Source: Planktothrix rubescens CCAP 1459/22
Lineage (GTDB): Bacteria; Cyanobacteriota; Cyanobacteriia; Cyanobacteriales; Microcoleaceae
DNA length: 64,000 bases
Reading direction: 5' to 3'
Assembly: GCA_904830895.1 (NCBI GenBank)
Contig: LR882958.1
Location: 5,289,501 to 5,353,500 of the forward strand
Part shown: in pieces, positions 9,591 through 35,206 of the stretch
How positions within the stretch are numbered: position 1 is the stretch's first letter
Layout: each line of letters begins with the position of its first letter
Made by a program: the position numbers and the translations under genes
The notes under the pieces: model-generated
The model's database searches: none
What the model was told of the DNA's origin: nothing
What the model saw: only the letters and a program-made list of their open reading frames with translations

Positions 9591-12500
9591 ATGAAAAGCG
9601 CATTTTTAGACCGTCTGCATAGTCCTGAACGTCCCGTTATCGTGTTTGATGGGGGAATGGGAACTAACCTACAAACCCAAAATCTCACCGCCGAAGACTT
9701 TGGCGGGAAAGACTACGAAGGTTGTAATGAATATTTAATATATACCAAACCCGAAGCCGTTGCTAATGTTCATCGAGGCTTTTTAGAAGCGGGTGCAGAT
9801 GTTATTGAAACCGATACTTTTGGCGCCACTTCTATTGTTTTAGCTGAATATGATTTAGCTGATAAAGCTTATGATTTAAACAAAACCGCCGCCGAATTAG
9901 CTAAAGGTTTAACAGCAGAATATTCTACACCAGAAAAACCCCGATTTGTTGCGGGTTCAATTGGGCCAGGAACAAAATTACCTACCCTCGGACATATTGA
10001 TTTTGACACCTTACATCAAGCCTTTGCAGAACAAGCGGAAGGATTATTTGATGGAGGTGTGGATTTATTCATCGTTGAAACTTGCCAAGATGTGCTGCAA
10101 ATTAAAGCCGCATTAAACGGAATTGAAGACGTTTTTACTAAAAAAGGAGAACGTCGTCCGATTATGGTTTCCGTCACAATGGAAGCCTTTGGAACCATGT
10201 TAGTCGGGTCAGAAATGAGCGCGGCGTTAACAATTTTAGCCCCCTATAAAATTGATATTTTAGGTTTGAATTGTGCCACTGGCCCCGATTTAATGAAAGA
10301 ACATATTCGTTATTTATCGGAAAATTCCCCGTTTATTGTTTCCTGTATTCCTAATGCTGGTTTACCGGAAAATGTTGGTGGAAAAGCCCATTATAAACTT
10401 ACGCCACTTGAACTAAAAATGGCGTTAATGCACTTCGTTGAAGATTTGGGAGTTCAGGTGATTGGCGGCTGTTGTGGAACCCGTTATGAGCATATTCAAG
10501 CATTATCTGAAATTTCTCAAACCCTGAAACCCAAACAACGGGAACCGCAATTTATTCCCTCGGCGGCTTCAATTTATAGTCCCCAAAGTTATGAACAAGA
10601 AAACTCGTTTTTAATTATTGGTGAACGTCTCAATGCTAGTGGGTCTAAAAAATGCCGAGATTTACTTAATTTAGAAGACTGGGATGGGTTAGTTTCCTTA
10701 GCAAAATCTCAGATAAAAGAAGGGGCGCAAATTTTAGATGTTAACGTCGATTATGTTGGGCGAGATGGCGTAAGAGATATGAAAGAATTAGTCTCTCGCG
10801 TTGTGACTAATGTTAATTTACCCTTGATGTTAGACTCGACAGAATGGCAAAAAATGGAAGCGGGGTTAAAGGTATCTGGGGGAAAATGTTTACTCAATTC
10901 TACTAACTATGAAGATGGGGAAGAACGCTTTTATAAAGTGTTAGAAATTGCTAAAAAATATGGTGCTGCTATTGTGGTGGGAACCATCGATGAGGAAGGA
11001 ATGGGAAGAACCGCCGAGAAGAAATTTGAAATTGCTCAACGGGCTTATAATGCGGCCGTTAATTATGGTATTCCTGCTTATGAAATCTTTTTTGACCCCT
11101 TAGCATTACCGATTTCTACGGGTATTGAAGAAGACCGAAATAATGGCAAAGCCACGATAGATTCTATTCGTCAAATTCGTCAAGAATTGCCCGGATGTCA
11201 TATTGTTTTAGGGGTTTCTAATATTTCCTTTGGTTTAAATCCGGTGGCGCGGCAAGTCTTAAATTCGGTGTTTCTGCATGAAGCTATGCAAGTGGGGTTA
11301 GATGCGGCTATTGTTAGCGCCAATAAGATTTTACCCTTGGCAAAAATTGACCCCGAACATCAAGAAGTTTGTCGCAAATTAATTTATGACCAGCGAGGAT
11401 TTGATGGGGATGTTTGTGTTTATGACCCATTAGGAGAACTGACCAATTTATTTCAGGGTAAAACCACAAAACGAGATCGTTCTGGAGATATTAACCTTCC
11501 GATAGAAGAACGTTTAAAACGTCATATTATTGATGGAGAAAGAATTGGATTAGATGATGCTTTAGCCGCAGGTTTAAAACAATATCCTCCCCTAGAGATT
11601 ATTAATAATATTCTTTTGGATGGGATGAAAGTGGTGGGAGAATTGTTCGGGTCTGGACAAATGCAGTTACCTTTTGTATTACAATCAGCCCAAACTATGA
11701 AAGCCGCCGTTGCCTATTTGGAACCGTATATGGAGAAGTCAGAAACGGGGAATAATGGCAAAGGAATGTTTTTAATTGCTACCGTTAAAGGGGATGTGCA
11801 TGATATTGGTAAAAATTTAGTCGATATTATTTTATCTAATAACGGCTATCGGGTGCTTAATTTAGGGATTAAACAACCCGTGGAAAATATTATCAATGCT
11901 TACAAAGAACATGGCGCGGACTGTATTGCCATGAGTGGATTATTAGTTAAATCCACTGCTTTTATGAAGGAAAATTTGGAAGCATTCAATAAAGAAGGTA
12001 TTACAGTTCCGGTAATTTTAGGTGGGGCGGCTTTAACTCCAAAATTTGTCTATGAAGATTGTCAAAATGTCTATCAAGGTCAAGTTATTTATGGCAAAGA
12101 TGCTTTTTCTGACTTGAATTTCATGGATAAATTAATGCCTGCGAAAACAGCCCAAAAATGGGATGATTCCCAGGGATTTTTAGGGGAATATGCAGAAGTC
12201 AAGAAAATTAAAGTTAAGTCGGAAACAGTTAAAAATGCTTCAGAAAATCCTGAAGAAATTGTGATTGATACCCGACCTTCTGAAGCTGTTGATGTTAATA
12301 TTGAACGTCCCACCCCTCCTTTTTGGGGAACGAAAATTTTACAACCGCAAGATATTCCTATAGAGGATATTTGGTGGTATTTAGATGTACAAGCGTTAGT
12401 TGTAGGTCAATGGCAATTTCGCAAACCCAGGGAACAATCAAAGGAAGAATATAATCAATTTTTAGCTGAAAAAGTCTATCCAGTTTTAACGGAATGGAAG

Positions 12501-13109
12501 GCTAAGATTTTAGCGGAAAATTTATTACATCCTACGGTGATTTATGGATATTTCCCCTGTCAATCGGAGGGGAATTCGCTATTAATTTTTGACCCAGAAA
12601 ATCATCAAAAACAGGTTGCCCGGTTTGACTTTCCTCGACAAAAATCAGGAAAACGCTTGTGTATTGCGGACTTTTTTGCCTCTAAAGAAAGTGGCAAAAT
12701 TGATGTTTTCCCGATGCAGGCGGTAACTGTTGGGGAAATTGCTACGGAATACGCGCAAAAACTGTTTGCTGAAAATGACTATAAGAATTATTTGTATTTC
12801 CATGGAATGGCGGTACAAACCGCCGAAGCGTTGGCAGAATGGACTCATGCAAAAATTCGTCGGGAGTTGGGATTTGGAAGTGAAGAACCGGATAATGTGC
12901 GGGATGTTTTAGCCCAACGTCATCGGGGTTCTCGTTATAGTTTTGGATATCCGGCTTGTCCGAATATTCAAGACCAATATAAGCAGGTTGAGTTATTACA
13001 AACTGACCGAATTAATATGTATATGGATGAAAGTGAACAAATTTATCCAGAACAGTCTACAACGGCGTTTATTACCTATCATCCTGTTTCTAAATACTTC
13101 AATCTTTAA
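9591..13109 (+). CDS. metH: Cobalamin-dependent methionine synthase
   Basis: Transfers the methyl group of 5-methyltetrahydrofolate to homocysteine through methylcobalamin. At 1172 aa it has all four modules: homocysteine/zinc domain (1-330, zinc ligands Cys228 in GLNCATGP and Cys294-Cys295 in GGCCGT), pterin domain (about 350-630, [15 protein letters not shown]-like start), B12 domain (about 650-890, cobalt-ligating His737 in GDVHDIG) and the C-terminal reactivation domain that binds S-adenosylmethionine (about 920-1172, [10 protein letters not shown]). Length is normal. The 110 bases between the MITE and the ATG do not show a recognisable cobalamin riboswitch. A hairpin after the stop may end transcription. 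Confidence 0.97.
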
Positions 13110-15311: not shown

Positions 15312-16154
15312 TTAGTTTTTTAGGCGTTTTCCTTCTCCTTGAATGCGTAAATATTCCCCAAATAAGGCAAGGAATCCAGAGGCTAAAATTAGGATGACGC
15401 TCAAGGCATTAATATCGGGTTTGACTCCGGTTCTAATTCGACTAAATATTTCCATTGGTAAGGTATTTGCCCCACTTCCGGCGGTGAAACTGGCGATTAA
15501 AAAATCATCCATACTTAACACAAAAGCTAGTAAACAACCTGATATAATCCCAGGCATTAATTGAGGTAATAAGACTTGCAAAAAAGCCTCTATGGGTGTT
15601 GCTCCTAAGTCTAAGGCGGCTTCTTCTAAATGGGGATCTAAATCGGCTAAACGGGTGGAAACAACTAAGGCAACGTAGGCTAAACAAAAGACAACATGGG
15701 CGCATACAATTGTCCATAAACTGAGGGGAATGGCAACGGCGGCTAAAAATACTAGGGTTGCCACCGCCATAGCGATATCAGGAATAATTAATGGTAAATA
15801 GGACGCTCCTTGATATAATCCTTTTCCTGGGAAATGATAACGGGCTAATCCTACGGCCATTAATGTACCAATAATCGCGGCAATTCCTACGGCACAAATT
15901 CCCACGATTAAACTATTATTTAAAGCGGTTAAAATTCTGGTATCTTGGAATAATTTGACATACCATTCTAATGTAAATCCTTCCCAGCCCGCACTATATC
16001 GAGATTTATTAAAACTAAAAAATGTTAATACAAAAATCGGCAGGTACATATAAAAAAACATCAAACAGACAAAAACTACCTGCCAAGAAATTCTAAACTT
16101 TGGTTTAGCAGCCATATCAAGGATCTCCTCTGGTTGTTGTTGGATTTCTTCCAT
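15312..16154 (-). CDS. potC: Spermidine/putrescine ABC transporter permease PotC
   Basis: 280-aa inner-membrane permease with six predicted helices. The EAA loop that docks the ATPase is seen as LEEAALDLGATPIEAF followed by PQLMPGI. The order potD-potB-potC on one strand and the 23-bp gap to potB indicate an operon. An internal ATG (MAAKPKFRISWQV, about 16112) is another possible start. No potA ATPase gene is in the window, so an ATPase must be encoded elsewhere. Ligand assignment rests on resemblance to PotC. Confidence 0.9.
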   Translation of the reverse strand: MEEIQQQPEEILDMAAKPKFRISWQVVFVCLMFFYMYLPIFVLTFFSFNKSRYSAGWEGFTLEWYVKLFQDTRILTALNNSLIVGICAVGIAAIIGTLMAVGLARYHFPGKGLYQGASYLPLIIPDIAMAVATLVFLAAVAIPLSLWTIVCAHVVFCLAYVALVVSTRLADLDPHLEEAALDLGATPIEAFLQVLLPQLMPGIISGCLLAFVLSMDDFLIASFTAGSGANTLPMEIFSRIRTGVKPDINALSVILILASGFLALFGEYLRIQGEGKRLKN

Positions 16155-16177
16155 AAATTTTTCCTAATTTATTTTAA

Positions 16178-17089
16178 TTAACGAGACGGTTTAGGATCTC
16201 CATATTTAATTAAAAGTGCGATCGCAATACTCACCCCAAAAATTAATACCATACTCAAGGCTGAACCAAAGCCCCAATTTTGAGTTGATCCTAAAAATTG
16301 GTTATAAATTAATCGAGAAACCGTCATACTTGAGGCTCCTCCTAATAGTTCGGGATCGACAAAATCTCCCATTGAACTAATAAAAACTAGCAGAGATCCG
16401 GCGGCAATTCCGGGCAAGGTTTGGGGGACGGTGACTTTCCAAAATGTTTCTACAGGTCGCGCTCCTAGGTCGGCGGAGGCTTCTAATAATCGCCGATCTA
16501 ATTTTTCTAAAGACGCATACAAAACTGTTACCATATAGGGTAAATAACTATAGGCCATGCCAATTAAAACCGCCGGAGTTCGATTTAATAGTTCTAAGGC
16601 GGGTAATCCAATTAATCCTAAAACGGAGTTTAATACTCCGGTTGGTCTTAATATGGTAATCCAAGCGTAGGTTCTTAATAAAGAAGATGTCCACAGGGGT
16701 AAAATAAAGGCTAATAGTATTATATTTCGCCACTGTTTCGGGGCTAATTGAGCAATCCAATAGGCGACGGGAAATCCTAGGACTAAACAAATTGTGGTTG
16801 TGCCAAAAGCATAAAAGAGCGATCGCCAAATCACTAATAAATTAATCGGTTCAAATACTCTTAAATAATTATAAATGCCATTGGGAATTACCAAATCCCC
16901 AGGGCGAATATCCTTAACTAAACTGAGTTGAAAAATCAATAAAGTTGGCAGGATTAATAAGAGTAATAACCATAAACCCGACGGCCCCAATAATGCCAAG
17001 GGGCCAATTAATTGAGAACCGAGTTGTCGCCAGCCTTTTTTGATTGGGGGTGGAGAAGAAGTCGTTGGAGTTTTTGTTGAAATAGTCAT
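16178..17089 (-). CDS. potB: Spermidine/putrescine ABC transporter permease PotB
   Basis: 303 aa, partner permease to PotC. It has an N-terminal Pro/Ser-rich cytoplasmic tail, a first helix (about 30-55) and five more, and the EAA motif LLEASADLGARPVETF followed by PQTLPGI. The conserved TSSLLRTYAW sequence of PotB-type permeases is present. It lies between potD (125-bp gap) and potC (23-bp gap). Confidence 0.9.
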   Translation of the reverse strand: MTISTKTPTTSSPPPIKKGWRQLGSQLIGPLALLGPSGLWLLLLLILPTLLIFQLSLVKDIRPGDLVIPNGIYNYLRVFEPINLLVIWRSLFYAFGTTTICLVLGFPVAYWIAQLAPKQWRNIILLAFILPLWTSSLLRTYAWITILRPTGVLNSVLGLIGLPALELLNRTPAVLIGMAYSYLPYMVTVLYASLEKLDRRLLEASADLGARPVETFWKVTVPQTLPGIAAGSLLVFISSMGDFVDPELLGGASSMTVSRLIYNQFLGSTQNWGFGSALSMVLIFGVSIAIALLIKYGDPKPSR

Positions 17090-17214
17090 AGATCAGGGAA
17101 TGGGTAATGGGTAATGGGGGAAAAAATTGCTTTTTTCTGAGAGTTTGACCCGGGTTGAATATTCTAATTACCTTAACAATTACTATAGATTGGTTAAGGT
17201 TTAGCAGTTAACAA

Positions 17215-18342
17215 TTAACTGGTTAGCTGTGTCCAATACCGTTCATAAATTTCATTAGCTTTACCCAAATCATGAATCATTTCACTGCGAGCTAGGATTG
17301 ATTCTGGAGGAAATAAAGTCGGATCATTTCTCAAAACATCGGGTAATTTTTCATAAGCTAATCTCGAAGGCGTGGCAAATTTCAAGCGTTTAACTAAGGT
17401 TGCGGCTATATCCGGTCGCAACATAAAATTAATCCATTTATAGGCTCCTTCGGGGTTAGGAGCACTTTTAGGAATTACCATAGTATCAATCCATAAAGAT
17501 GATCCACTATAGGGAGTAATATATCTTAAATCCTCATTTTCCTCCTTAATTTCTGCTGCATCGGAGGAATAACACATAGCAATTGATAAGTCCCCGACAA
17601 TCATTTGTGGTCGCCAAGAATCCGTGGTAAAAGAAGCGATCGTCGGCCGTAATTCCACTAATTTTTCATAGGCTTGTCTAATTTGATTGGGGTCAGTAGA
17701 ATTATAGGAATAACCTAACATTCTTAATGAGGCTCCCATGACTTCCCGCACATCATTAAGTAACGTAATTCGCTTTGACAATTTATCTTTATTTTCCCAG
17801 AGATAACTCCAATCTTTCGGGGGAGTTTCTAATTTATTCGGGTTATAAATTAACCCCGTTGTTCCCCAACTAATTGGAACACTATGAAGACCGCCGGGAT
17901 CATAAATCGGGTTTTTAAATTGCGGAAATAAATCCTCTAATCCGACTAATAAAGAGTGATCAACTTCAGCCAATAGACCTATTTGAATCATTTTCTCCAC
18001 CATATATCCCGAAGGATAGATGACACTATAAGCACTTGCTCCTCCGGCTTGGAGTCGGGCTAACATGGCTTCATTAGAATCGAAGACATCCGCCACAACT
18101 TTTAACCCAGTTTCCTCTCTAAAATGATCTAACAAATCTTGATCCGTGTAGCCAGACCAAGTGTAAATGTACAGAGTATCGGAGGAAATCTGAGTGTTCG
18201 GGGTGGTTTTGACCTCAGCTAATGTCCAACCACAGCTTGATAGGGACGATGCTACCATCGCAGTAACGGAAGTTTGCAAAAACTGACGTCGTGTTTGAGC
18301 AACCCTAGAATTCCGATGTTTTTGTGGATAAGTCGGAGACAC
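17215..18342 (-). CDS. potD: Spermidine/putrescine-binding lipoprotein PotD
   Basis: 375 aa, extracytoplasmic solute-binding protein for the adjoining permeases. The start has a twin-arginine motif (TRRQFLQT, Arg18-Arg19) and then a lipobox-like LSSC with Cys37, so it is probably exported folded by Tat and lipid-anchored. The mature part begins LYIYTWSGYTDQDLL, a strong match to PotD/PotF proteins, and includes SWGTTGLIYNP and the ligand-binding aromatic and acidic positions typical of polyamine binders. It is the first gene of the operon. Confidence 0.92.
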   Translation of the reverse strand: MSPTYPQKHRNSRVAQTRRQFLQTSVTAMVASSLSSCGWTLAEVKTTPNTQISSDTLYIYTWSGYTDQDLLDHFREETGLKVVADVFDSNEAMLARLQAGGASAYSVIYPSGYMVEKMIQIGLLAEVDHSLLVGLEDLFPQFKNPIYDPGGLHSVPISWGTTGLIYNPNKLETPPKDWSYLWENKDKLSKRITLLNDVREVMGASLRMLGYSYNSTDPNQIRQAYEKLVELRPTIASFTTDSWRPQMIVGDLSIAMCYSSDAAEIKEENEDLRYITPYSGSSLWIDTMVIPKSAPNPEGAYKWINFMLRPDIAATLVKRLKFATPSRLAYEKLPDVLRNDPTLFPPESILARSEMIHDLGKANEIYERYWTQLTS

Positions 18343-18551: not shown

Positions 18552-20117
18552 TTATGGCGTCACACTTGATAGTTGACGTAGACTTTCTACTTGTTGTTCT
18601 TTGAGTTGCTGTTCAATTTGATCCTTAACAATTTGGCGGTATTCATAGAAATGTTCTACCTGTCCACAAACCACTAAATAATGATCTAAAACCCTGGGTT
18701 TGTGTCGTAAAATATTCCATAAATATCGCCAAAACGTCGAACGAGTTTCCCGCACAATCCCTTGATACCAACATAAAATCAATAGCGCCCGCATCGTTTT
18801 CATATCCACTAATTTCCGTCCAATGGAATTAGTTTTTGGCTCTCCAATCATCATAAAATGACGGTAAGTGCGATCTAAATATCGTTGTGGATCGTATAAT
18901 TCATAAAATCCATTGACATATTCTAGGGCGATTTCTTCAATTGGTCGAGTGGGCAGAAAATTCATTAAGGTAGTTTGATTCGCATTCCCAGTTTCCTTAA
19001 TTAATCGTCCTTCTTTTTCTAAACGATGCCAAAGGGCGGTATTAGGTAAAACCTGCAACATACTAAACATAGCAATGGGAATGGTGGTTTTTTCCACAAA
19101 CCGGACAATTCGATCGCCCGCCCCGGTTTCTTCCCCATCAAAACCAATAATAAATCCCGCCATCACCCGTAACCCAGATCGGATAATTTTTTCCACGGAA
19201 TCACTCAAAGATCCGCGAGTATTTTGGAATTTTTTAGTTAAATTTAAGCTATCTTCATCGGGAGTTTCAATTCCCAAAAAGACAGCCCGAAAATTACACT
19301 CAACCATCAAATCCATTAATTCTTGATCCTGGGCTAAATCAATGGAAGCCTCCGTGGTTAAACGGAAAGGATAATTATTATCCTTCATCCAAACTTTTAA
19401 TTCATGCAGCAATAACTTAACGTTGCGTTTATTGCCGATAAAATTATCATCCACTAAGAAAACACCCTGACTAAAATTTAACTCTTTTAACCGATCCAAT
19501 TCTGCTAAAAGTTGAGCCGGAGTTTTAGTTCGAGATTTCCGTCCATATAATACAATAATATCGCAAAACTCACACTGAAACGGACAGCCGCGGGAGTATT
19601 GCAAAGAAATCATATCGTATGCTTCTTTCTCCAATAAATCAAAGCGAGGGATAGGAGATGTCGTAACATCGGGTTTGTCTCCTTCTATGCGAAAAACCCC
19701 TTTTTCATCCCCTCTTTCAATCGCTTCTACTAATAACGGTAAAGTAATTTCTCCTTCATCTAAAACTAAATAATCCGCCCCGGCAATTTCTGCCGATTCG
19801 GGTGTGGAGGTGGGATAGGGGCCGCCTACAGCCACTTTTTTGCCCCGTCGTTTCGCCTCGCGAATTTGCTCCAAAAAATCATCTTTTTGGACAATCATGG
19901 CCGAAACCATCACCAATTCTGCCCAATCCCATTCCGCTTCAGTGATCTCTCGAACATTACGGTCTACTAATTTAAACTCCCATTTTTGGGGTAAAATAGC
20001 CGCTACCGTAATTAAACCTAGGGGTGGAAGTAAGGCTTTTCGGTTGACTAAGGCAAGGGCTTTTTCAAATGACCAGAAACTTTGGGGAAAAATGGGATAA
20101 ATTAAAAGAACACGCAT
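18552..20117 (-). CDS. B12-binding radical SAM protein
   Basis: 521 aa from the ATG at 20117 (MRVLLIYPIFPQ); the frame is open to 20207 but that would overlap the upstream gene. N-terminal cobalamin-binding fold (about 1-150), then a radical SAM domain with the cluster motif CPFQCEFC (about residue 180), and a C-terminal DUF4070-like region (YDPQRYLDRTYRHF). Relatives include HpnJ-type and other B12-radical SAM enzymes that methylate or rearrange unactivated carbon. It follows the oxoamine synthase gene by about 50 bp on the same strand, so it could tailor that product. The DxHxxG cobalt-ligand motif is not obvious, as in many of this class. Confidence 0.85.
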   Translation of the reverse strand: MRVLLIYPIFPQSFWSFEKALALVNRKALLPPLGLITVAAILPQKWEFKLVDRNVREITEAEWDWAELVMVSAMIVQKDDFLEQIREAKRRGKKVAVGGPYPTSTPESAEIAGADYLVLDEGEITLPLLVEAIERGDEKGVFRIEGDKPDVTTSPIPRFDLLEKEAYDMISLQYSRGCPFQCEFCDIIVLYGRKSRTKTPAQLLAELDRLKELNFSQGVFLVDDNFIGNKRNVKLLLHELKVWMKDNNYPFRLTTEASIDLAQDQELMDLMVECNFRAVFLGIETPDEDSLNLTKKFQNTRGSLSDSVEKIIRSGLRVMAGFIIGFDGEETGAGDRIVRFVEKTTIPIAMFSMLQVLPNTALWHRLEKEGRLIKETGNANQTTLMNFLPTRPIEEIALEYVNGFYELYDPQRYLDRTYRHFMMIGEPKTNSIGRKLVDMKTMRALLILCWYQGIVRETRSTFWRYLWNILRHKPRVLDHYLVVCGQVEHFYEYRQIVKDQIEQQLKEQQVESLRQLSSVTP

Positions 20118-20169
20118 TATCATTAACCCTGTAAAAGATAAACATCTAAGTTCACAAAATTCCCGAAAA

Positions 20170-21495
20170 TCATGGATTTTCCGACAATTTTGCCACTTCT
20201 TCAGCAAGAGTATCTACAGTATAACGAATTTGTTCTTCCATGTGGTTACAAGTAATAAAAAATCGCAAACGCGCCGCGTTTTTAGGTACGGAGGGATAAA
20301 ACATAAAAGGTACATTAATTCCCCGCTTGAACAAATTTTGAGAGAGTTGTACTGATTTCCAAGAATCTCCAACAATAATAGGAATCACGGGAGAATCTTG
20401 ACTTAACCCGGTATTTAAGCCTTGATCTTTAGCTAAAGTTAAAAATAATTTAGCTCTTTGATGTAATAGTTCTACCCGTTGAGGTTCATTTTTTAAAACC
20501 TGAATCGCCGCAATCACGGAAGCCGCACTAGGGGGAGAAATTCCCACACTAAAAACAAATCCGGGGGCGGTATATTTCAGATATTCAACTAATGATTTAG
20601 ATCCGGCAATATATCCTCCACAACTGGCAAAGGATTTGCTTAAAGTTCCCATCCATAAATCTACATCATGGGGATTAATTCCAAAATGTTCTCCAATTCC
20701 CCGACCGTGTTTTCCTAATACCCCTATAGAGTGGGCTTCATCCACCATTAAAAAGGCTTTATGATGTTTTTTAATCTGAATAAATTCGGGTAAATTGGGA
20801 ATATCTCCATCGGTACTATAGACCCCTTCGACAATAATTAAAACCCGTTGATAACGAGGGCGCCGTTCTCGTAATATTTGATCTAAAGCTTGCCAATTAT
20901 TATGGGGAAAGGCGATCGCCGTAGCCCCAGATAATAAAGCTCCTTGCAATAAACTATTATGACTTAGGGCATCATGTAAAATCAGATCATGCTGTCCGAA
21001 TAAATGCCCCACGGTAGTAACATTAGTGGCATGACCCCCGACAAAAACAATACTATCTTCAACTCCAACAAAATCAGCGATCGCCCGTTCTAATTCTTGG
21101 TGAATTACCTTTTCACCCGATAATAAACGACTGGCACAGGCTGAGGTTCCATAGCGATCAATTGCCTCTTTTACAAACTGAGAAATAATCGGATCACCAC
21201 ACATTCCTAAATAATTATAGGTGGCATAATTAATATAGTCTTGACCGCGAATTCTAGCCCGATCATTGGCAATTCCCTCCTGGGGTGTAAAAAAGGGATT
21301 TCCTAATCCTAAATCTGCCAATTCTTGCTGTTGTTGTTTCAGATGTAGATATTCAGGAAAGTATTCAATTTGATAATATTCGGCTGGAATTTCAGGCAGA
21401 GGGGCAGATTTGGCCTTTTTTTCCAGTAATTCTGCGAGAAGCGATCGCTTTTCTTGACAAGATAACTGACTAACAGAAGGTAATAAACTAATCAT
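20170..21495 (-). CDS. Alpha-oxoamine synthase (AONS/serine palmitoyltransferase-like)
   Basis: 441-aa PLP enzyme of the class that joins an acyl thioester to an amino acid with loss of CO2, giving a 2-aminoketone. Motifs: RYGTSACASRLLSGE, EGVYSTDGDIPNLPEF, DEAHSIG and the PLP Lys287 in GTLSKSFAS. An N-terminal extension of about 60 residues (SLLAELLEKKAK..YFPEYLHLKQQQ) is unlike biotin-pathway BioF. Its start overlaps the upstream acyl carrier protein gene by 8 bp, so the acyl donor is probably that carrier protein rather than CoA. Products could be sphingoid-like bases, alpha-aminoketones or signal ketones; BioF itself is a less likely alternative. Confidence 0.85.
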   Translation of the reverse strand: MISLLPSVSQLSCQEKRSLLAELLEKKAKSAPLPEIPAEYYQIEYFPEYLHLKQQQQELADLGLGNPFFTPQEGIANDRARIRGQDYINYATYNYLGMCGDPIISQFVKEAIDRYGTSACASRLLSGEKVIHQELERAIADFVGVEDSIVFVGGHATNVTTVGHLFGQHDLILHDALSHNSLLQGALLSGATAIAFPHNNWQALDQILRERRPRYQRVLIIVEGVYSTDGDIPNLPEFIQIKKHHKAFLMVDEAHSIGVLGKHGRGIGEHFGINPHDVDLWMGTLSKSFASCGGYIAGSKSLVEYLKYTAPGFVFSVGISPPSAASVIAAIQVLKNEPQRVELLHQRAKLFLTLAKDQGLNTGLSQDSPVIPIIVGDSWKSVQLSQNLFKRGINVPFMFYPSVPKNAARLRFFITCNHMEEQIRYTVDTLAEEVAKLSENP

Positions 21496-21964
21496 TGATT
21501 TCTTCCTGTTCTGATAATAAAATATTTAATAACGTATCGACATCCGTATCCGACAATTGATCTAAATGTTGTAAAAGATGTTCCGCATCTTTCGGGGAAA
21601 TCCCGTTTTGATATTGGGTAATATCCAAGGTGTTGTGATCGGCTAAATATTTAGCCAAAGTACAAATATTGGGATAATCCCATAACAGGGTGGGGGGAAG
21701 TCGGCGTCCCAAAATCGTTTCCAAGTCTCCAGAGAGGTTAATTGCTTCAATAGAGTTGAGGCCATAATTAGTAAAATCCTCCTCTAAATCAATCTCTAAA
21801 GCTTCTAACTCTAACCGTTCCGCGAGTTGACTGACTAACCACCCCTCAATTGTGGCGACAGACTCGAAAGACTCAATGCCGTTCACCAATGATTCTGGAT
21901 GATGCACCGTTACCGATGGTTGTTGGGGTTTTGTCCCATTCATAGACGCATTTAACACTTGCAT
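21488..21964 (-). CDS. Acyl carrier protein, stand-alone, extended
   Basis: 158 aa. The carrier domain (about 35-110) has the phosphopantetheine Ser71 in YGLNSIEAINL and the helix III motif PPTLLWDYPNICTLAKYL, which resembles carrier domains of polyketide synthases more than fatty-acid AcpP. An N-terminal extension of about 35 residues and an acidic C-terminal helix region (about 115-158) flank it. It sits between a fatty acyl-AMP ligase and an oxoamine synthase and overlaps the latter, indicating it carries the acyl chain from one to the other. Confidence 0.85.
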   Translation of the reverse strand: MQVLNASMNGTKPQQPSVTVHHPESLVNGIESFESVATIEGWLVSQLAERLELEALEIDLEEDFTNYGLNSIEAINLSGDLETILGRRLPPTLLWDYPNICTLAKYLADHNTLDITQYQNGISPKDAEHLLQHLDQLSDTDVDTLLNILLSEQEEIND

Positions 21965-22070
21965 GAATCACTCCTCCATCACCCTAAAACTTTAGCATCC
22001 CAAGATAGCAGAATCCTGTTTTACTTACCAATTCCCCATTCGTAATTCGTAATTCGTAATTTGTAATTCC

Positions 22071-23861
22071 CTATTCCCCCAATTTGCCCGCTATAAAACT
22101 AGCACGACAGGCATGGCGTTGAATTTTACCACTGGAGGTTTTAGGTAAAGTTCCGGGTTTTAGTAACACCGTTTTATAGACCTGTAAATCATGGTTTTGA
22201 GACACGGAGCGACGGATGGACTGAAGAATCACCTGTTCAGGGGAGGTTTTTGCAGAACCGTTATGATTATCCCAGGTGCGGATTTGTTGCCAATATTGAC
22301 GTTCTACTTCCACTGCAACGACTAACCGTTCTTCCCCCTTGATATCAATAGAAAATCCCGCAACTCCACTGGGTCTAATTAGGGGGTGACTTTGTTCAAC
22401 TGTCCATTCAATATCTTGGGGATAATGATTCCGACCATTAATAATAATAATATCTTTAATTCTTCCGGTAATAAATAGTTCTTGATCATCTAAAAATCCC
22501 AAATCCTCTGTCCTTAAAAATGGCCCTTCTCCCGTTGTTAAATAGGCGTTAAACAGAGTTTCTGTTTCCTGATGTTTATTCCAATATCCCCGTCCCACAC
22601 TCGGCCCAGAAACCCAAATTTCGCCGACTTTTCCCGGTTCACAAATATTCAAGGTTTCAGGATTAATAACTAATACCTTTTGATCTGATAAACACTGACC
22701 GCAACCGACTAATATTTTGGTATTGGCTGTTAAATTAGTAGTCACTTCATCAACTTCTACAATCTGATGATTTTCTAAAGCAATACCATCAACGGTTTTA
22801 AAAATTGGTGATGCTGTTTTTAAACCTCCCGTAATAATTAAAGTCGCTTCAGCCATACCATAACAGGGATAAAAAGCCTCTCGCCTAAATCCGTAGGGGG
22901 CAAAAGTTTGAATAAATTTTTCTATAACTTCGTGATAAATGGGTTCAGCCCCATTAAATGCCACTTCCCAACTACTTAAATCTAAATTTTCTAATTTTTG
23001 GGATGAATTTATCCCCCCATTTCTTAATACTTTTCTTACACATAAATCATAAGCAAAATTCGGCCCTCCACTGGTTGTTCCCCGATATTTGGAAATAGTT
23101 TGTAACCAGCGTAAGGGATTTTGAACAAACATTAAAGGCGACATTAAAATCACCGGAAATCCCCCGAATAAAGGTTCTAAAACCCCACCAATTAATCCCA
23201 TATCATGATAGGGAGGCAACCAAATTACCCCCGTACTTTCCGGGGAATGACCAAAACAATCATAAATTGCTGTTAAATTATGTAATAGATTTTGATGGGA
23301 AATCATTACCCCTTTAGGGGTAGCAGTAGAACCGGAAGTATATTGTAAAAAGGCAAGAGTTTGACTATTAATAATAGGAGGTTGCCAAGTCTTTCCAATT
23401 TCATGATCTAAGATATCTGTTGCAAACCAATTTAACGGCGCAATATCAGACATAGTTGGAAAAAATCGCTGTAAACCCGATAATGTGGCTTCAGTGGTTA
23501 AGGCAACCGTGGCATTTGTATCAGTAATAATCGCTTGTAAACGAGGCAAAGATCGATCGGGTCTGGGGGGATAGGCGGGAACGGCAATCACTCCGGCATA
23601 TAAACATCCAAAAAATGCGCTAATATAATCTAACCCCGGTTGATATAGTAATAAAACTCGATCTTGAGGTTGACAAATAGCTTGTAATTTAGCAGCAATT
23701 GTTCTGGCTTGTTGGTTTAATTGTTGATAGGTTAAAGTTAAAATTTCGTTTTCCCCATCCACTAAAAAAGTATAGGCAATTTTATTAGGTTGCTCGGATG
23801 CACGATATTCTAAAAGTTCAATTAAGGTTGTCCATTGCCACGAGTTGAATTGCTGAGTCAT
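22071..23861 (-). CDS. Fatty acyl-AMP ligase (FAAL) 1
   Basis: 596 aa. FAALs activate free fatty acids as acyl-adenylates and load them on a carrier protein rather than on CoA. Seen: P-loop-like LQYTSGSTATPKGVMISH, YHDMGLIGGVLEP, GAEPIYHEVIEKF, YGMAEATLIITGG, TGRIKDIIIINGRNHYPQ and the C-terminal catalytic Lys in LPKTSSGKIQRHACR. AYPPRPDRSLPRLQAI near residue 95 is typical of FAALs. It lies 106 bp upstream of the carrier protein gene and is presumably its loading enzyme. A second, diverged FAAL lies just upstream. Confidence 0.9.
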   Translation of the reverse strand: MTQQFNSWQWTTLIELLEYRASEQPNKIAYTFLVDGENEILTLTYQQLNQQARTIAAKLQAICQPQDRVLLLYQPGLDYISAFFGCLYAGVIAVPAYPPRPDRSLPRLQAIITDTNATVALTTEATLSGLQRFFPTMSDIAPLNWFATDILDHEIGKTWQPPIINSQTLAFLQYTSGSTATPKGVMISHQNLLHNLTAIYDCFGHSPESTGVIWLPPYHDMGLIGGVLEPLFGGFPVILMSPLMFVQNPLRWLQTISKYRGTTSGGPNFAYDLCVRKVLRNGGINSSQKLENLDLSSWEVAFNGAEPIYHEVIEKFIQTFAPYGFRREAFYPCYGMAEATLIITGGLKTASPIFKTVDGIALENHQIVEVDEVTTNLTANTKILVGCGQCLSDQKVLVINPETLNICEPGKVGEIWVSGPSVGRGYWNKHQETETLFNAYLTTGEGPFLRTEDLGFLDDQELFITGRIKDIIIINGRNHYPQDIEWTVEQSHPLIRPSGVAGFSIDIKGEERLVVAVEVERQYWQQIRTWDNHNGSAKTSPEQVILQSIRRSVSQNHDLQVYKTVLLKPGTLPKTSSGKIQRHACRASFIAGKLGE

Positions 23862-24140
23862 GTAAAAAAATTAGGGTGATGTTTTGTTATCTATATTTAA
23901 CCACAAAGACACAAAGACACAAAGAGGTTTTAAACACACAGGGAGTCTTCATTACTCTCGTTAATTTTATTAACCATTTTTAAAGGGTTTCAGCTTTTGC
24001 TTAGGTTTATTTCCACAGATTCACTGTTTTTTGATTCAGCAAATATCTAACTTTTACTGATAATTGTTGTTGTTTTATAATCAATTTAAGTGGTAATGGT
24101 GCGGGTGCTGATCGCTTACACACCCTACGATGGTTAACTT
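23862..24140. other. Intergenic region between the two FAAL genes
   Basis: About 280 bases. It contains a short AGACACAAAGACACAAAG direct repeat (about 23905-23925) and AT-rich sequence. A 62-codon frame on the minus strand (24007-24195) starts inside the upstream gene's end and looks spurious. A separate promoter for FAAL 1 could be here. Confidence 0.4.
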
Positions 24141-25943
24141 TTAAGAACGATTTGCCAATTCTGACAATTGACTGGTTTCTGTATCTAATCTCCATTGTCC
24201 AACACTATCTAAACTCCCTTCTAAAAATTTAGTCCGACAAGCACGACGTTGAATTTTACCACTGGTGGTTTTAGGAATAGTTGTGGTTTTTAATAATACA
24301 ATTGCAAAGACATCCACGGTATTCTGTTCGGCGATCGCCTGACGAATAGCATTGACGACTTCCTCAACGTTCAAGTTTCGTAAATACCGCCGTTCGATTT
24401 CTGCGGCAATAATTAACTGTTCTCCGAGTTCCGTTTCCACCGAAAACGCCGCACTATGTCCAGCACGAATAGCCGGGTGACAGGTATCTAGGGTAGCTTC
24501 AATTTCCTGGGGATAACGATTTCTTCCCCACAAAATCATCATGTCCTTGATCCGTCCCGTAATATACAATTCCCCGTCCTGTAAAAATCCTAAATCTCCC
24601 GTGCGTAAATAGGGCCCCCGTCCCTCGACATAAACCCGAAAGGTGGTTTCCGTGTCTTCGGGTTTATCCCAATATCCCAAACCCACACCTTTCCCCGATA
24701 CCAAGATTTCACCCACTTGATCCGCGTCCCGGGGCGTTAACTCTTGCGGATCAACAATCATCACCTCATCTGCCAACCAGGGGAAGCCACAACTGACTAG
24801 CGATCGAGTTTTTCTGGACTGTGGGTTATTAGCCAGTGATGTTTCCTGTGTTTGGATGACTTGATTGTGTTCTAGGGCGACGGGATCAACCCAGAGAATA
24901 TTAGGGGTTTGGTGTTTGTGTCCACCGGAAATAAATAGGGTAGTTTCGGCCATTCCGTAGCAGGGATAAAACGCCTCCGGTTTGAACCCACAGGGGCCAA
25001 AAATTTCTGCAAACCGTTTAAGGGTGTCCCAGCGTACAGGTTCAGCCCCGGAAAAGGCCACATCCCAGGAACTTAAATCTAACTGTTCTAACTTTTCAGG
25101 CGTCGCTGTCCTACAGACTAAATCATAGGCAAAATTTGGCCCGCCACTGGTGGTAGCCTGATATTCAGAAATCGCTTCTAACCAACGAAAGGGTTTTTGG
25201 ACTAAAGCAACTGGGGACATCAAAGTAACCGGAAATGATCCATATAAAGGTTGAACAACTCCCCCAATTAATCCCATATCGTGAAATAGGGGAAGCCAAA
25301 TTAACCCCTTACTATTATTGTGATGGCCAAAAGCCTTATAAATAATTGCCGAATTATGCAAAACATTTCCATGGGTAACAATTACCCCTTTTGGGGTTCC
25401 GGTGGAACCGGAAGTATATTGTAAAAAAGCGACGGTATCCCCGTTAATTGGCGGTTCTTGCCAGTCTATAGCGAGGTTTTGAGCCAAAAGGTCATCGGTC
25501 GCCACCCACCGTAGAGACGTGCCACGGCGCGTCTCCTCCTCTTTCTCCACAGAAAATTGTATTTTTAACTGTTCAATTAATGCTTTTGTGCTTAAAATTG
25601 CCCGACATTGAGAAGATTCTAAACGGGTTTGTAGCTTAACAATTGCTTGGGGGGAGACTGGAGGGTTATCGGTAACGGCGATCGCACCCGCATATAAACA
25701 GCCAAAAAACGCCGCAATAAATTCTAATCCCGCACTATAGGGATAAACGACTAAAACCCGATCACCTGGGGATAAAAATGATTGTAAATAAGATGCAATT
25801 TGGACAGCTTGTTGATGTAACTGTAGATAGGTCAGGGTTTGCTGACTCGTTTCTCCGTCGGCTAAAAACCGATAGGCGAGTTGATCTGGTTTATGTTCAG
25901 CGCGATCGCGCAATAAATCGACTAAATTAGAAAAACTGCTCAT
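24141..25943 (-). CDS. Fatty acyl-AMP ligase (FAAL) 2
   Basis: 600 aa, paralogous to the FAAL at 22071-23861 with the same motif order: LQYTSGSTGTPKGVIVTH, FHDMGLIGGVVQP, FSGAEPVRWDTLKRF, YGMAETTLFISGG, TGRIKDMMILWGRNRYPQ and the Lys in IPKTTSGKIQRRACR. Near residues 134-146 it has an insertion EEETRRGTSLRWV relative to FAAL 1, encoded by a dispersed GTAGAGACG palindrome (25511-25535). It is the first gene of the strand-minus block and faces a divergent glycosyltransferase. The two ligases may load different chains or act at different steps. Confidence 0.9.
   Translation of the reverse strand: MSSFSNLVDLLRDRAEHKPDQLAYRFLADGETSQQTLTYLQLHQQAVQIASYLQSFLSPGDRVLVVYPYSAGLEFIAAFFGCLYAGAIAVTDNPPVSPQAIVKLQTRLESSQCRAILSTKALIEQLKIQFSVEKEEETRRGTSLRWVATDDLLAQNLAIDWQEPPINGDTVAFLQYTSGSTGTPKGVIVTHGNVLHNSAIIYKAFGHHNNSKGLIWLPLFHDMGLIGGVVQPLYGSFPVTLMSPVALVQKPFRWLEAISEYQATTSGGPNFAYDLVCRTATPEKLEQLDLSSWDVAFSGAEPVRWDTLKRFAEIFGPCGFKPEAFYPCYGMAETTLFISGGHKHQTPNILWVDPVALEHNQVIQTQETSLANNPQSRKTRSLVSCGFPWLADEVMIVDPQELTPRDADQVGEILVSGKGVGLGYWDKPEDTETTFRVYVEGRGPYLRTGDLGFLQDGELYITGRIKDMMILWGRNRYPQEIEATLDTCHPAIRAGHSAAFSVETELGEQLIIAAEIERRYLRNLNVEEVVNAIRQAIAEQNTVDVFAIVLLKTTTIPKTTSGKIQRRACRTKFLEGSLDSVGQWRLDTETSQLSELANRS
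25511..25535. repeat. GTAGAGACG palindrome inside the FAAL 2 coding sequence
   Basis: GTAGAGACGTGCCACGGCGC then GTCTC, a copy of the dispersed palindrome family also at 29919-29946 and 52412-52447, with a diverged relative at 28865-28888. Reading frame is kept through it, adding residues around TRRGTSLR to the protein. Confidence 0.75.
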
Positions 25944-25953
25944 ACCTTAATAT

Positions 25954-26000
25954 AGAGTCCTAAAGGACTCACTACATAGAGTCCTAAAGGACTCACTACG
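25954..26000. repeat. Tandem pair of AGTCCTAAAGGACT hairpin repeats
   Basis: Two 23-24 bp units (25954-25977 and 25978-26000), each AGAGTCCTAAAGGACTCACT followed by ACAT or ACG. They lie between divergent FAAL 2 and glycosyltransferase genes, so they occupy the shared promoter region. They are related to the TAAGCCCT family. Confidence 0.75.
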
Positions 26001-26018
26001 ATCAAGGTACAGTTTAGT

Positions 26019-27242
26019 ATGAAAATTGCCATTATTTCCTCTGGTTTTTTCCCCGTGATTGATGGGGTTACGGTTAGTGCGATGATGCGACTCCAGAAGT
26101 TAAGTCAATGGGGACATGAGGTTTTATTTTTTTGTCCCGACTATAGCACCATTGAAAGTGTTTATCCCAATTGGCGAGAATATAGCGGCAATATTTTACC
26201 AGGTGTGCGAGTTTATAATTTACCTAGTACGCCATTTTTAGGATTAGATTTTGAACGTAACCCTTCTATTAAATCCTATTCTATTTTATTAAAAGAATTA
26301 GAAAAATTTCAGCCCGATTTAGTTCATGTTGATGAACCAGAAAGGCTATTTTTTGGATTTTTTAGACGGGCTGGAATAGACTATGCTAAAAAAGCAAATA
26401 TTCCCTGTATTGCGTTTTTTAGAACTTGGTTTTTATCCTACGCTGAAGATTATATTCCCTTACCTAAATTTGCGGTAGAAATCATTAGAGAAATTTTTAG
26501 AAGGATTTTTGCTTGGATTTATAATGGCTATGATGTCACCTTATTTACCAGTAAAATCACCTATCAACTCGCCCCCCAAATGTCAATTCATAATGCGGTT
26601 TATGAGAATTTAGCCGGATTTGATGCCCAACGCTTTAACCCTAATTTAAAAGAAGAAGATTTTTTTAAAAAATATTATAATTTACCCGAATTAGATCGTT
26701 TAACTAAATTGATTTTTGTCGGTCGTCTAACCCCCGATAAAGGTTGGAATTTTACTTTAAAAACCATGGCAAAAGTTGCAGAAAAAATTGATTTAGAAAA
26801 AGTCGGTTTTATTATTATTGGGGATGGACAAATGCAGGACGAAATCATCGCAGGTTTAACAAAATTTACCCGTCATGTCTATTTCCTGGGTCGGGTAGCC
26901 TATGACCAAGTTCCGGCGGTTTATGCTAATAGTGATATTCATATTACCACCTCGGAACGGGAATCGAGAGGATTAACCGTATTAGAGGCTTTTGCGTCCG
27001 GTATTCCCGTATTAGCTCCCCGGGCGGGAGGGTTAGTTGAAAATGTTATAGATGGGGAAAATGGATTTTTATATACTCCTCAAGATCCAGAAGATTTTAC
27101 ACACAAATTAAAGCAATTAATCGAAGATCCTCTATTAAGAAAAACCCTCGGAAATCAAGGAATGAAATCCGTCGGTAATTATAGTTGGGATGTAGTAATT
27201 AAAAATTTAGTTGATATTTGGGAACAAAAAATTTCAGAATAG
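26019..27242 (+). CDS. GT4-family glycosyltransferase
   Basis: 407 aa with a GT-B fold. N-terminal acceptor-binding half (MKIAIISSGFFPVIDGVTVS, then a disordered loop), C-terminal donor half with IFVGRLTPDKGW, IIIGDGQMQDEI and the nucleotide-sugar E-x7-E motif in SERESRGLTVLEAFASGIP. It resembles SqdX/PimB-like enzymes that glycosylate lipids. No transmembrane segment; membrane association is probably peripheral. It is divergent from the FAAL/ACP block, with only 75 bp between starts. That makes it a candidate for glycosylating a lipid made there, but this is inference. Confidence 0.85.
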   Translation: MKIAIISSGFFPVIDGVTVSAMMRLQKLSQWGHEVLFFCPDYSTIESVYPNWREYSGNILPGVRVYNLPSTPFLGLDFERNPSIKSYSILLKELEKFQPDLVHVDEPERLFFGFFRRAGIDYAKKANIPCIAFFRTWFLSYAEDYIPLPKFAVEIIREIFRRIFAWIYNGYDVTLFTSKITYQLAPQMSIHNAVYENLAGFDAQRFNPNLKEEDFFKKYYNLPELDRLTKLIFVGRLTPDKGWNFTLKTMAKVAEKIDLEKVGFIIIGDGQMQDEIIAGLTKFTRHVYFLGRVAYDQVPAVYANSDIHITTSERESRGLTVLEAFASGIPVLAPRAGGLVENVIDGENGFLYTPQDPEDFTHKLKQLIEDPLLRKTLGNQGMKSVGNYSWDVVIKNLVDIWEQKISE

Positions 27243-33718: not shown

Positions 33719-35206
33719 GTGCGAAAGTCGAAATTGCTTTCTCTGGTTCTGATTTTTTCTGTGTTGAGTTACACACCTGTTGGTTTGGGGCAGAGTGTGG
33801 AGGAATTATTAAAGCAAGGGGTGGATGCTTTTGGACAACAAAACTACACCCAAGCGGAATCCATTTATCGTCAAATTATTAAAAATAATCCCCGTCATGC
33901 CGAATCTTATTTATGGTTAGGTGTTACGCTTTATAGACAAGGGAAATTAGACGAAGCAATTACTAATTACCAAAAAGCCATTCAACTCGACCCCAAATCT
34001 GCCAATGCTTACTACAATCTGGGTGTTGCGCTTAAAAACCAAGGGAAATTAGATGAAGCGATTACTAATTACCAAAAAGCGATTCAACTCGACCCCAAAT
34101 TTGCCCTTGGTTACATTGGTCTGGGCAATGCGCTTAGAAACCAAGGGAAATTAGAAGAAGCGATTACTAATTACCAAAAAGCGATTCAACTCGACCCCAA
34201 ATATGCCTCTGCTTACATTGGTCTGGGCAATGCGCTTAGAAACCAAGGGAAACTAGAAGAAGCGATTACTAATCACCGGATAGCTTTAAGTTTACCTGAT
34301 GAAAAAGCAACTCCTGCCAGCAACCATACCTTAGCCCATAATTCTTTAGGCTATGCTCTACAACAACAAGGGAAACTGCCAGAAGCCATTGCGGAGTATC
34401 AAAAATCTATTGCCCTTGACGGCAATTTTGTCGCCGCCCAGAATAACTTAAAGGAAGCCCAACGACTCCTGGCCCAACAGTCTCCCCAATATGTCCCGGC
34501 GCCTGCGAGTGATTTAGCCTTTGTTCCCACTTTGCAACAGGAACCCCTGCGGGATGAGTTACGCGCTACGGTATTGATTATTGCTAATGATATTCCGGGG
34601 ACACAGGGGCAGACAAGGGGGACGGGTTGGGTGGTGAAACGGGAGGGAAATACTATTTGGGTGATGACTAACCGCCATGTTATTGCCGACAATAGGGGTA
34701 AACCCAGTCCCAAGATTGAAATTGAGTTTTTCAGCGATATTGAAGAAAACCGACGCACCCGTTTTGCAGCGACAGTTGAACAAATTAGTAATGACCCAAA
34801 TCTGGATTTAGCGGTTTTGAAAATTACGGGAATTCCTGATGATATTCGACCGTTGAAAATGGGTACAGGTCGAATCAGTCGCAATACTAAAATTATTGTG
34901 ATTGGTCATCCGATTAATGCTGACCCTTGGAATTCCTCTGGGGGAGAAGTGACGAATTATAGTATTAATAAAGTGACTGTTAGTGCGGTGGTTGCTACGG
35001 GTAATTCCGGTGGCCCTGTGATTAACGAAACCACAAAAGAGGTGATTGCGATTATGGTTCAGGTTGCAGGTGAGAATATTTCCACTAATCCTAACATCCC
35101 TACCCCGCCCCCTCCTGATCAAGTTTTCACCACCGGAGAGTTTGGTATTGCTTATCCGATTGATTTAGTCCAACAACAGTTAATTAAATGGGGGATAAAT
35201 CCGTAG
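33719..35206 (+). CDS. Exported TPR and trypsin-like serine protease
   Basis: 495 aa from a GTG at 33719. Signal peptide (LLSLVLIFSVLSYTPVGLG-QS), six TPR units (about 25-230) and a trypsin-like domain (about 275-490). The catalytic triad is visible: His in MTNRHVIAD, Asp in DPNLDLAVLKI and Ser in VATGNSGGPVIN. TPRs 2-4 come from three exact-length 102-bp DNA repeats (33938-34243). It presumably acts in the periplasm or outside the cell, with the TPRs recruiting partners. The next gene is a chimeric copy of its protease part. Confidence 0.88.
   Translation: MRKSKLLSLVLIFSVLSYTPVGLGQSVEELLKQGVDAFGQQNYTQAESIYRQIIKNNPRHAESYLWLGVTLYRQGKLDEAITNYQKAIQLDPKSANAYYNLGVALKNQGKLDEAITNYQKAIQLDPKFALGYIGLGNALRNQGKLEEAITNYQKAIQLDPKYASAYIGLGNALRNQGKLEEAITNHRIALSLPDEKATPASNHTLAHNSLGYALQQQGKLPEAIAEYQKSIALDGNFVAAQNNLKEAQRLLAQQSPQYVPAPASDLAFVPTLQQEPLRDELRATVLIIANDIPGTQGQTRGTGWVVKREGNTIWVMTNRHVIADNRGKPSPKIEIEFFSDIEENRRTRFAATVEQISNDPNLDLAVLKITGIPDDIRPLKMGTGRISRNTKIIVIGHPINADPWNSSGGEVTNYSINKVTVSAVVATGNSGGPVINETTKEVIAIMVQVAGENISTNPNIPTPPPPDQVFTTGEFGIAYPIDLVQQQLIKWGINP
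33938..34243 (+). repeat. Three 102-bp tandem repeats encoding TPR units
   Basis: Units begin at 33938, 34040 and 34142 (each CAAGGGAAATTAGAnGAAGC), and a diverged fourth begins at 34244. Each encodes one 34-residue TPR (QGKLDEAITNYQKAIQLDPK). High identity suggests recent copying and potential copy-number change. Confidence 0.9.

Follow-up and report, generated by a model that had tools for sequence, protein, structure and literature searches.

A gene cluster of Planktothrix rubescens with a probable fatty acyl-AMP ligase-fed route to glycosylated sphingoid-type lipids

A stretch of 64,000 nucleotides of the genome of Planktothrix rubescens CCAP 1459/22 (assembly GCA_904830895.1, contig LR882958.1, positions 5,289,501 to 5,353,500 of the forward strand), referred to here in its full length as the window, contains a cluster of six genes that encode two fatty acyl-AMP ligases (FAALs), an acyl carrier protein (ACP), an alpha-oxoamine synthase (AOS), a B12-binding radical SAM protein and a glycosyltransferase. 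The order of these genes, their families, their phylogeny and their co-occurrence across genomes were observed directly and point to a pathway that probably leads from free fatty acids to a glycosylated sphingoid base. Five of the genes, from FAAL1 to the radical SAM gene, lie on the minus strand, and the glycosyltransferase gene diverges from FAAL1. The features of the locus are as follows:

26019-27242, plus strand: GT4 glycosyltransferase (PF00534), encoded divergently from FAAL1; its proposed role is glycosylation of the lipid
24141-25943, minus strand: FAAL1, fatty acyl-AMP ligase (PF00501 and PF23024); proposed to activate a second acyl chain as N-acyl donor
22071-23861, minus strand: FAAL2, fatty acyl-AMP ligase (PF00501 and PF23024); its proposed role is to charge the ACP that serves the AOS
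21488-21964, minus strand: ACP of 158 amino acids (PF00550, E 2.7e-13), with GLNSIEAI around the phosphopantetheine serine
20170-21495, minus strand: AOS, similar to SgaB and serine palmitoyltransferase (SPT), assigned by PF00155 and trees; proposed 3-ketosphinganine-type synthase
18552-20117, minus strand: HpnP-like B12-binding/radical SAM/DUF4070 protein (PF02310, PF04055, PF13282), its open reading frame (ORF) open from 20207; proposed tailoring enzyme
15312-18342, minus strand: PotC/PotB/PotD-like polyamine ABC transporter genes, downstream; neighbours conserved in the genus, outside the proposed pathway

The ACP and AOS genes overlap by 8 bp, and the gaps measure 75 bp between GT4 and FAAL1, 279 bp between FAAL1 and FAAL2, 106 bp between FAAL2 and ACP, and 52 bp between the AOS and radical SAM genes, the last counted from a start at 20117. 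The radical SAM ORF as listed opens with TTG at 20207; because most of the listed homologues align only from about residue 23-31 (a few start earlier), translation probably begins at an ATG near 20117, which would yield a protein of 521 residues. A first-pass annotation of the window, made from the sequence, had described the six genes with these domains and positions and the overlap of the AOS start with the ACP gene, and the domain searches, ORFs and coordinates agree with it. It had also stated that the cluster lacks a polyketide synthase (PKS) or nonribosomal peptide synthetase (NRPS) module, and a scan of the ten proteins between 15312 and 28317 detected neither a ketosynthase (KS) nor an NRPS condensation domain; the iterative PKS that stands beside the AOS in the SgaAB pathway is thus missing there. 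Promoter-like sites (35, against 24.3 in shuffled sequences) and terminator-like sites (16 against 9.3) were counted and were not used as evidence.

The AOS was compared across a draw of 386 genomes of the cyanobacterial phylum (142 genera), in which individual genomes carry G numbers and loci L numbers. It was found in 18 of the 386 at 49-100% identity to the query (E ≤ 3e-137), with the other listed matches at 32-41% (E ≥ 3e-80); the closest named AOS among the matches listed comes from a metagenome-assembled genome labelled Planktothrix (91%). The motif D252-E-A-H-S256 and K287 are invariant across the 18 sequences. BioF, KBL and SPT share the chemistry of oxoamine synthases. Among solved structures, the AOS matches best the entries named long chain base protein 2a and serine palmitoyltransferase. 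A careful tree of 48 rows was calculated, from which 13 of the 61 rows of an earlier tree had been omitted as near-duplicates or as long or divergent rows. In this tree 33 Sga-type rows form one clade (99/97), separate from eight cyanobacterial BioF rows (100/99). The clade takes in AOSs of Pseudomonas putida and Bordetella whose genes adjoin PKS genes (2,529 and 2,522 amino acids), as the genes of PfSgaAB are arranged, and by this common clade the window AOS is classed as SgaB-type, with the PKS-linked homologues serving as proxies for PfSgaB, which is itself outside the tree. The plant LCB2a also joins the Sga clade (99/98), on a very long branch, and is not relied on.

A set of 98 loci indicates how the AOS is supplied with acyl chains. 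They comprise the window, 17 regions of AOS genomes and the best 80 of at least 573 confirmed relatives; since these 80 were chosen by likeness to the query and some organisms occur twice (for example L053/L096), these proportions should not be read as a survey. A fusion of FAAL and AOS occurs in 39 loci, a separate FAAL lies within three ORFs in 12, and a PKS is fused or adjacent in 26; the remainder are 14 other or truncated loci and seven without an AOS ORF. In all eight fused proteins that were scanned (seven of the 39 and that of L212) the AMP-binding, ACP and AOS domains follow one another in that order in one chain, and in relatives such as L041 and L042 the ACP is fused to the AOS. Single-chain FAAL-ACP-AOS proteins of about 1,150 residues were common among the relatives found, with many planctomycete loci (L062-L135). 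One AOS clade receives its chains from a PKS in some loci and, it seems, straight from free fatty acids via a FAAL in others. Other arrangements were seen in single loci: a Shinella plasmid bears PKS, AOS and SDR genes in a row, and plasmid p3 of Planktothrix agardhii (L204) carries a PKS-AOS gene, a window-type GT4 and a FAAL1-type ligase. In G002 (L055, 7354-11954) a FAAL-ACP-AOS fusion is followed by a sulfotransferase gene, and in G358 (L041, 8678-9913) an IS605-type transposase gene lies between ACP-AOS and FAAL1.

Both ligases of the window were assigned to the FAALs by their AMP-binding domain together with a DIP2-like C-terminal domain. The solved matches of FAAL1 include named FAALs, the top ones being the FAAL-like parts of entries named polyketide synthase; none of the NCBIfam FAAL models reaches its cut-off for the window FAALs. 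In a quick tree of 37 rows, the FAAL1 clade (14 rows, support 99) is separate from the clade of free-standing FAAL2 (seven rows, 99). Of 13 genomes in which a GT4 locus was seen, nine have FAAL1 adjoining GT4 (the window genome, G261, G157, G070, G318, G123, G083, G058 and G211); the others are G358, G294, G011 and G118, in the last of which the locus is cut by the contig end. These loci thus have in common a second acyl activation step, distinct from the first.

Two further genes, those of a reductase and of GT4, track the AOS. A short-chain dehydrogenase/reductase (SDR) gene adjoins the AOS in G229, G078, G101 and G294 and is one gene off in G358. The best solved match of the G358 protein is TSC10, a 3-ketodihydrosphingosine reductase (E 4e-30), which leads the next SDR (3e-28) by only 6 bits. 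A 270-residue SDR with 64% identity to that of G358 is encoded in the window genome (L203, G000:C1:3659345-3660160), unlinked to the cluster. At presence cut-offs of E ≤ 1e-80 for the reductase and E ≤ 1e-40 for GT4, the reductase is present in 16 of the 386 genomes, and 12 of these also carry the AOS. GT4, which finds its best solved match in a phosphatidylinositol mannosyltransferase (E 3e-16), is present in 11; nine of them carry the AOS, and every one has the reductase. Fisher tests, which ignore kinship and whose queries were taken from two of the counted genomes, gave p = 5e-12 for AOS-GT4, 2e-15 for AOS-reductase and 7e-18 for GT4-reductase over the 386 genomes, and 1e-6, 3e-10 and 4e-12, respectively, by genus. 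One genome, G118, has the reductase and GT4, the latter at a contig edge, and no AOS was detected in it. Two AOS genomes that have no GT4, G078 and G101, possess a GT28-type glycosyltransferase gene close by instead.

The same partners were also met beside a different AOS. In G058, G083 and G211 (L212-L214; coordinates 8833-18156 in L212) FAAL-ACP-AOS, reductase, FAAL1 and GT4 genes stand in a row, and the AOS of G083 and G211 groups with Sphingobacterium SPT in the careful tree (99/96); that of G058 does so only in the 61-row tree (93). Therefore, two different oxoamine synthases would serve the same partners. When this SPT-like kind is added, an AOS of either kind is present in 15 of the 16 reductase genomes and 10 of the 11 GT4 genomes, a count that leaves out the GT4s of G058 and G211, which do not reach the cut-off. 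L212 and L213 additionally contain genes for a flippase-like protein and a fatty acid hydroxylase.

Within the genus, the two other genomes of the draw, G261 (L039) and G157 (L040), have the same genes in the same order with 80-93% protein identity. The first-pass annotation had proposed that conservation of the gene order be checked and that failure of the genes to co-occur elsewhere would speak against a pathway; they do co-occur, in the genus and in further genomes. Between the two FAAL genes of G261 and G157 lies a hydroxylase gene of family PF05118, and G157 has three further ORFs there. The search that detects PF05118 in these two genomes found none in the window genome, which appears to have lost the gene. 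Hydroxylase genes of PF05118 or PF04116 are located in the clusters of G157, G261, G358, G011, G229, G083 and G058. As PF04116 members were present in 22 of 22 genomes checked, their mere presence is uninformative.

From these observations we infer the individual reactions, the amino acid, the order of the steps and what FAAL1 and the radical SAM enzyme do. FAAL2 would adenylate a free fatty acid and load it onto the dedicated ACP. The pyridoxal phosphate-dependent AOS would then condense an amino acid, L-serine being the most likely, with the acyl-ACP, such that CO2 is lost and 3-ketosphinganine or a close analogue is formed. The unlinked reductase would reduce the ketone, FAAL1 may activate a second fatty acid for N-acylation to a ceramide, GT4 would add a sugar, and the B12-radical SAM enzyme would modify, perhaps C-methylate, the chain. 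We consider it likely that FAAL and ACP feed the cluster's synthesis of a glycosylated lipid of sphingoid or ceramide type; the core of this reading, a cyanobacterial sphingoid-base pathway that is supplied by FAAL and ACP and includes glycosylation, is probable. The first-pass annotation had seen in the cluster the first step of sphingoid-base-type lipids, and the reductase, with TSC10 as its narrowly leading match, and GT4, both tracking the AOS, lend support to this view, as do the three genomes in which these partners stand beside an SPT-like AOS and the PKS-AOS-SDR row of the Shinella plasmid. The choice of serine accords with the published serine-specific SPT activity of PfSgaB, which yields 3-ketosphinganines from serine and acyl-CoA surrogates (PMC12134224).

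Several observations weigh against this assignment, in addition to the small lead of TSC10, the neglect of kinship in the Fisher tests and the use of proxies for PfSgaB. The AOS scores 286, 320 and 232 bits with the curated models of canonical bacterial SPT (NF047599, NF047600 and NF047603), the cut-offs of which are 500, 640 and 670 bits, and hence reaches none of them. The amino acid used by the AOS is not readable from its sequence. The reductase is absent from the window's own cluster, as is the hydroxylase, and no NCBIfam SDR model reaches its cut-off for the G358 reductase. No N-acyltransferase was recognised. Among the 18 AOS genomes, six lack the reductase at E ≤ 1e-80 (G251, G380, G237, G235, G022 and G002) and nine lack GT4 at E ≤ 1e-40, and therefore the AOS clade also serves other products or pathways; four of the six have a PKS gene at the AOS, and G380 has a FAAL-acyl-CoA dehydrogenase-ACP-AOS fusion. 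Finally, Nostoc punctiforme, the one Nostoc tested, makes no sphingolipids according to PMC8895605, though its only AOS is BioF-like.

The radical SAM protein carries the motif CPFQCEFC and the B12-binding, radical SAM and DUF4070 domains, the domain set of HpnP. It is 63-72% identical to most of the cyanobacterial copies listed and 34-47% identical to homologues on alphaproteobacterial plasmids (25 of 29 records listed), a comparison that includes no confirmed HpnP. The first-pass annotation had suggested a tailoring function; the domains are as it described them, and the function itself finds weak support. Indeed, the gene may be a passenger with a general cyanobacterial role that is unrelated to the pathway, a reading that we take seriously without quite favouring it. 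At E ≤ 1e-50, 153 of the 386 genomes have a homologue, and linkage to the AOS was seen in five (window, G157, G261, G358 and G380). Nevertheless, in G358 and all three genomes of the genus the gene is an immediate neighbour of the AOS, and in G380, the copy of which is placed elsewhere in the tree, a single ORF separates the two; therefore, the link seems to have arisen twice. Moreover, the four best matches outside the genus, counted post hoc, all come from pathway genomes, and the branch of the window copy (eight rows, SH-aLRT 85, in a weakly resolved quick tree with distant copies partly sampled) contains only genomes with the AOS or with reductase and GT4. A hopanoid role for the gene is also conceivable, because a hopene cyclase is encoded in 15 of the 18 AOS genomes, that of the window included.

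A search of solved structures by sequence gave no match to the radical SAM protein at 1e-10. Its predicted structure (mean pLDDT 80.7) resembles in fold AprD4, TsrM, CysS, MgmA and MiaB, and some of the matches are B12-dependent C-methylases; these radical SAM matches do not name the reaction, and C-methylation of a lipid chain is only a natural guess. An extended version of the pathway would yield C-methyl-branched glycosphingolipids entirely via adenylation: FAAL2 and ACP would feed the AOS, N-acylation with the acyl-adenylate from FAAL1 would replace the CoA-dependent ceramide synthase, and the radical SAM enzyme would methylate the saturated chain. We regard this version as improbable. A B12-dependent methionine synthase gene lies in the same window (9591-13109), and in G011 (C1:222858-225344) a small gene similar to fatty acid hydroxylases is located near a window-like radical SAM gene, far from the AOS.

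Instead of a membrane lipid the cluster might produce a secreted secondary metabolite, in which case the FAAL-fed AOS would give an aminoketone or amino alcohol, or a pyrrole or pyrazine derived from it, that is glycosylated and perhaps methylated. The PKS genes fused or adjacent at 26 of the 98 loci agree with such a product, as do methyltransferase, sulfotransferase and GMC or FAD oxidase genes at the loci of relatives, the patchy spread of the AOS (18 of 386 genomes), and the MFS transporter genes beside GT4 in three genomes (L217, L219 and L220), where GT4 is away from the AOS locus. We nevertheless think it unlikely, as an SPT-like AOS is accompanied by the same reductase, FAAL1 and GT4 in three genomes and the reductase finds its best solved match in TSC10. 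Use of alanine or glycine by the AOS, which would generate 1-deoxy-type bases without the usual 1-O sugar, would be in keeping with conserved residues that do not reveal the amino acid and with the ability of Spt to use alanine, as stated in PMC11334938; GT4 suggests that a hydroxyl is there to be glycosylated, and this variant appears distinctly unlikely. That the AOS is the BioF of biotin synthesis with incidental neighbours is hardly credible: although the BioF model TIGR00858 is its best NCBIfam match by E-value, the score of 342 bits is short of the 426-bit cut-off, which a second AOS of the window genome (C1:2728075-2729133, L003) passes with 446.6 bits, a topology with the window AOS inside the cyanobacterial BioF clade is rejected (p-AU 0.0006), and the coupling to FAAL and ACP and the fusions also speak against it. 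The AOS was accordingly rejected as a BioF, and the clustering with BioF that the first-pass annotation had named among the outcomes that would refute its proposal did not occur. A topology that unites the Sga-type and cyanobacterial BioF clades as sisters is compatible with the data (p-AU 0.17), and therefore only nesting within BioF is excluded.

Elsewhere in the window, a protein with TPR and trypsin-like parts (33719-35206) and a WD40 repeat protein with an AAA-like domain (57448-60981) are encoded.

Sphingolipids have been reported from two cyanobacteria, and PMC8895605 states that neither a genetic basis nor an enzyme is known for them. The glucosylceramide mooreaside A from Moorea producens belongs to the product class predicted for the window cluster and comes from a cyanobacterium (PMC6272925). 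In the openly accessible literature we found no report of a FAAL-AOS sphingolipid-type cluster in cyanobacteria, and the main text of PMC12134224 contains neither "cyanobacter" nor "AMP ligase"; because the search was limited mostly to open papers, with subscription papers and preprints mostly outside it, priority is uncertain. The first-pass annotation recognised no described cyanobacterial system in the cluster, which holds to the extent that no cyanobacterial report was found; on the other hand, the AOS family is widespread and the product class of a PKS-linked member has been described (PMC12134224). The system is thus less isolated than was supposed and is a variant of known bacterial sphingolipid synthesis, not new in kind. 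It provides a concrete gene set that can be tested (AOS, ACP, two FAALs, reductase and glycosyltransferase) and a rule for choosing the cyanobacteria to test. Since the AOS clade is fed by a PKS or, as it seems, by a FAAL, the latter often in fused form and in many planctomycete loci, bacteria may make sphingoid bases more commonly than the canonical SPT models would lead one to expect.

Three known systems invite comparison. The domain set of the radical SAM protein is common to HpnP and the HpnP-like proteins, the latter having no known function (PMC10697835). PfSgaAB(C) of Pseudomonas fluorescens MYb115 has an AOS of the same clade, as judged from the PKS-linked proxies, a KDSR-like reductase was proposed there too, and a sphingoid-type product is expected in both systems (PMC12134224). 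However, in PfSgaAB(C) an iterative PKS builds the chain, whereas the window cluster combines two FAALs with a free-standing ACP, lacks a PKS and has in addition the GT4 and B12-radical SAM genes. In the AasR-AcpR-SPT system of Rhodobacteria such as Caulobacter, a specialised ligase and a specialised ACP likewise deliver a free fatty acid to an oxoamine synthase (PMC9386255). The window cluster differs from it, AasR being compared by description, in its FAAL-type ligases, its second FAAL and an AOS that stays below the SPT cut-offs, and in the fused relatives of that AOS the ligase, the ACP and the oxoamine synthase are united in one chain.

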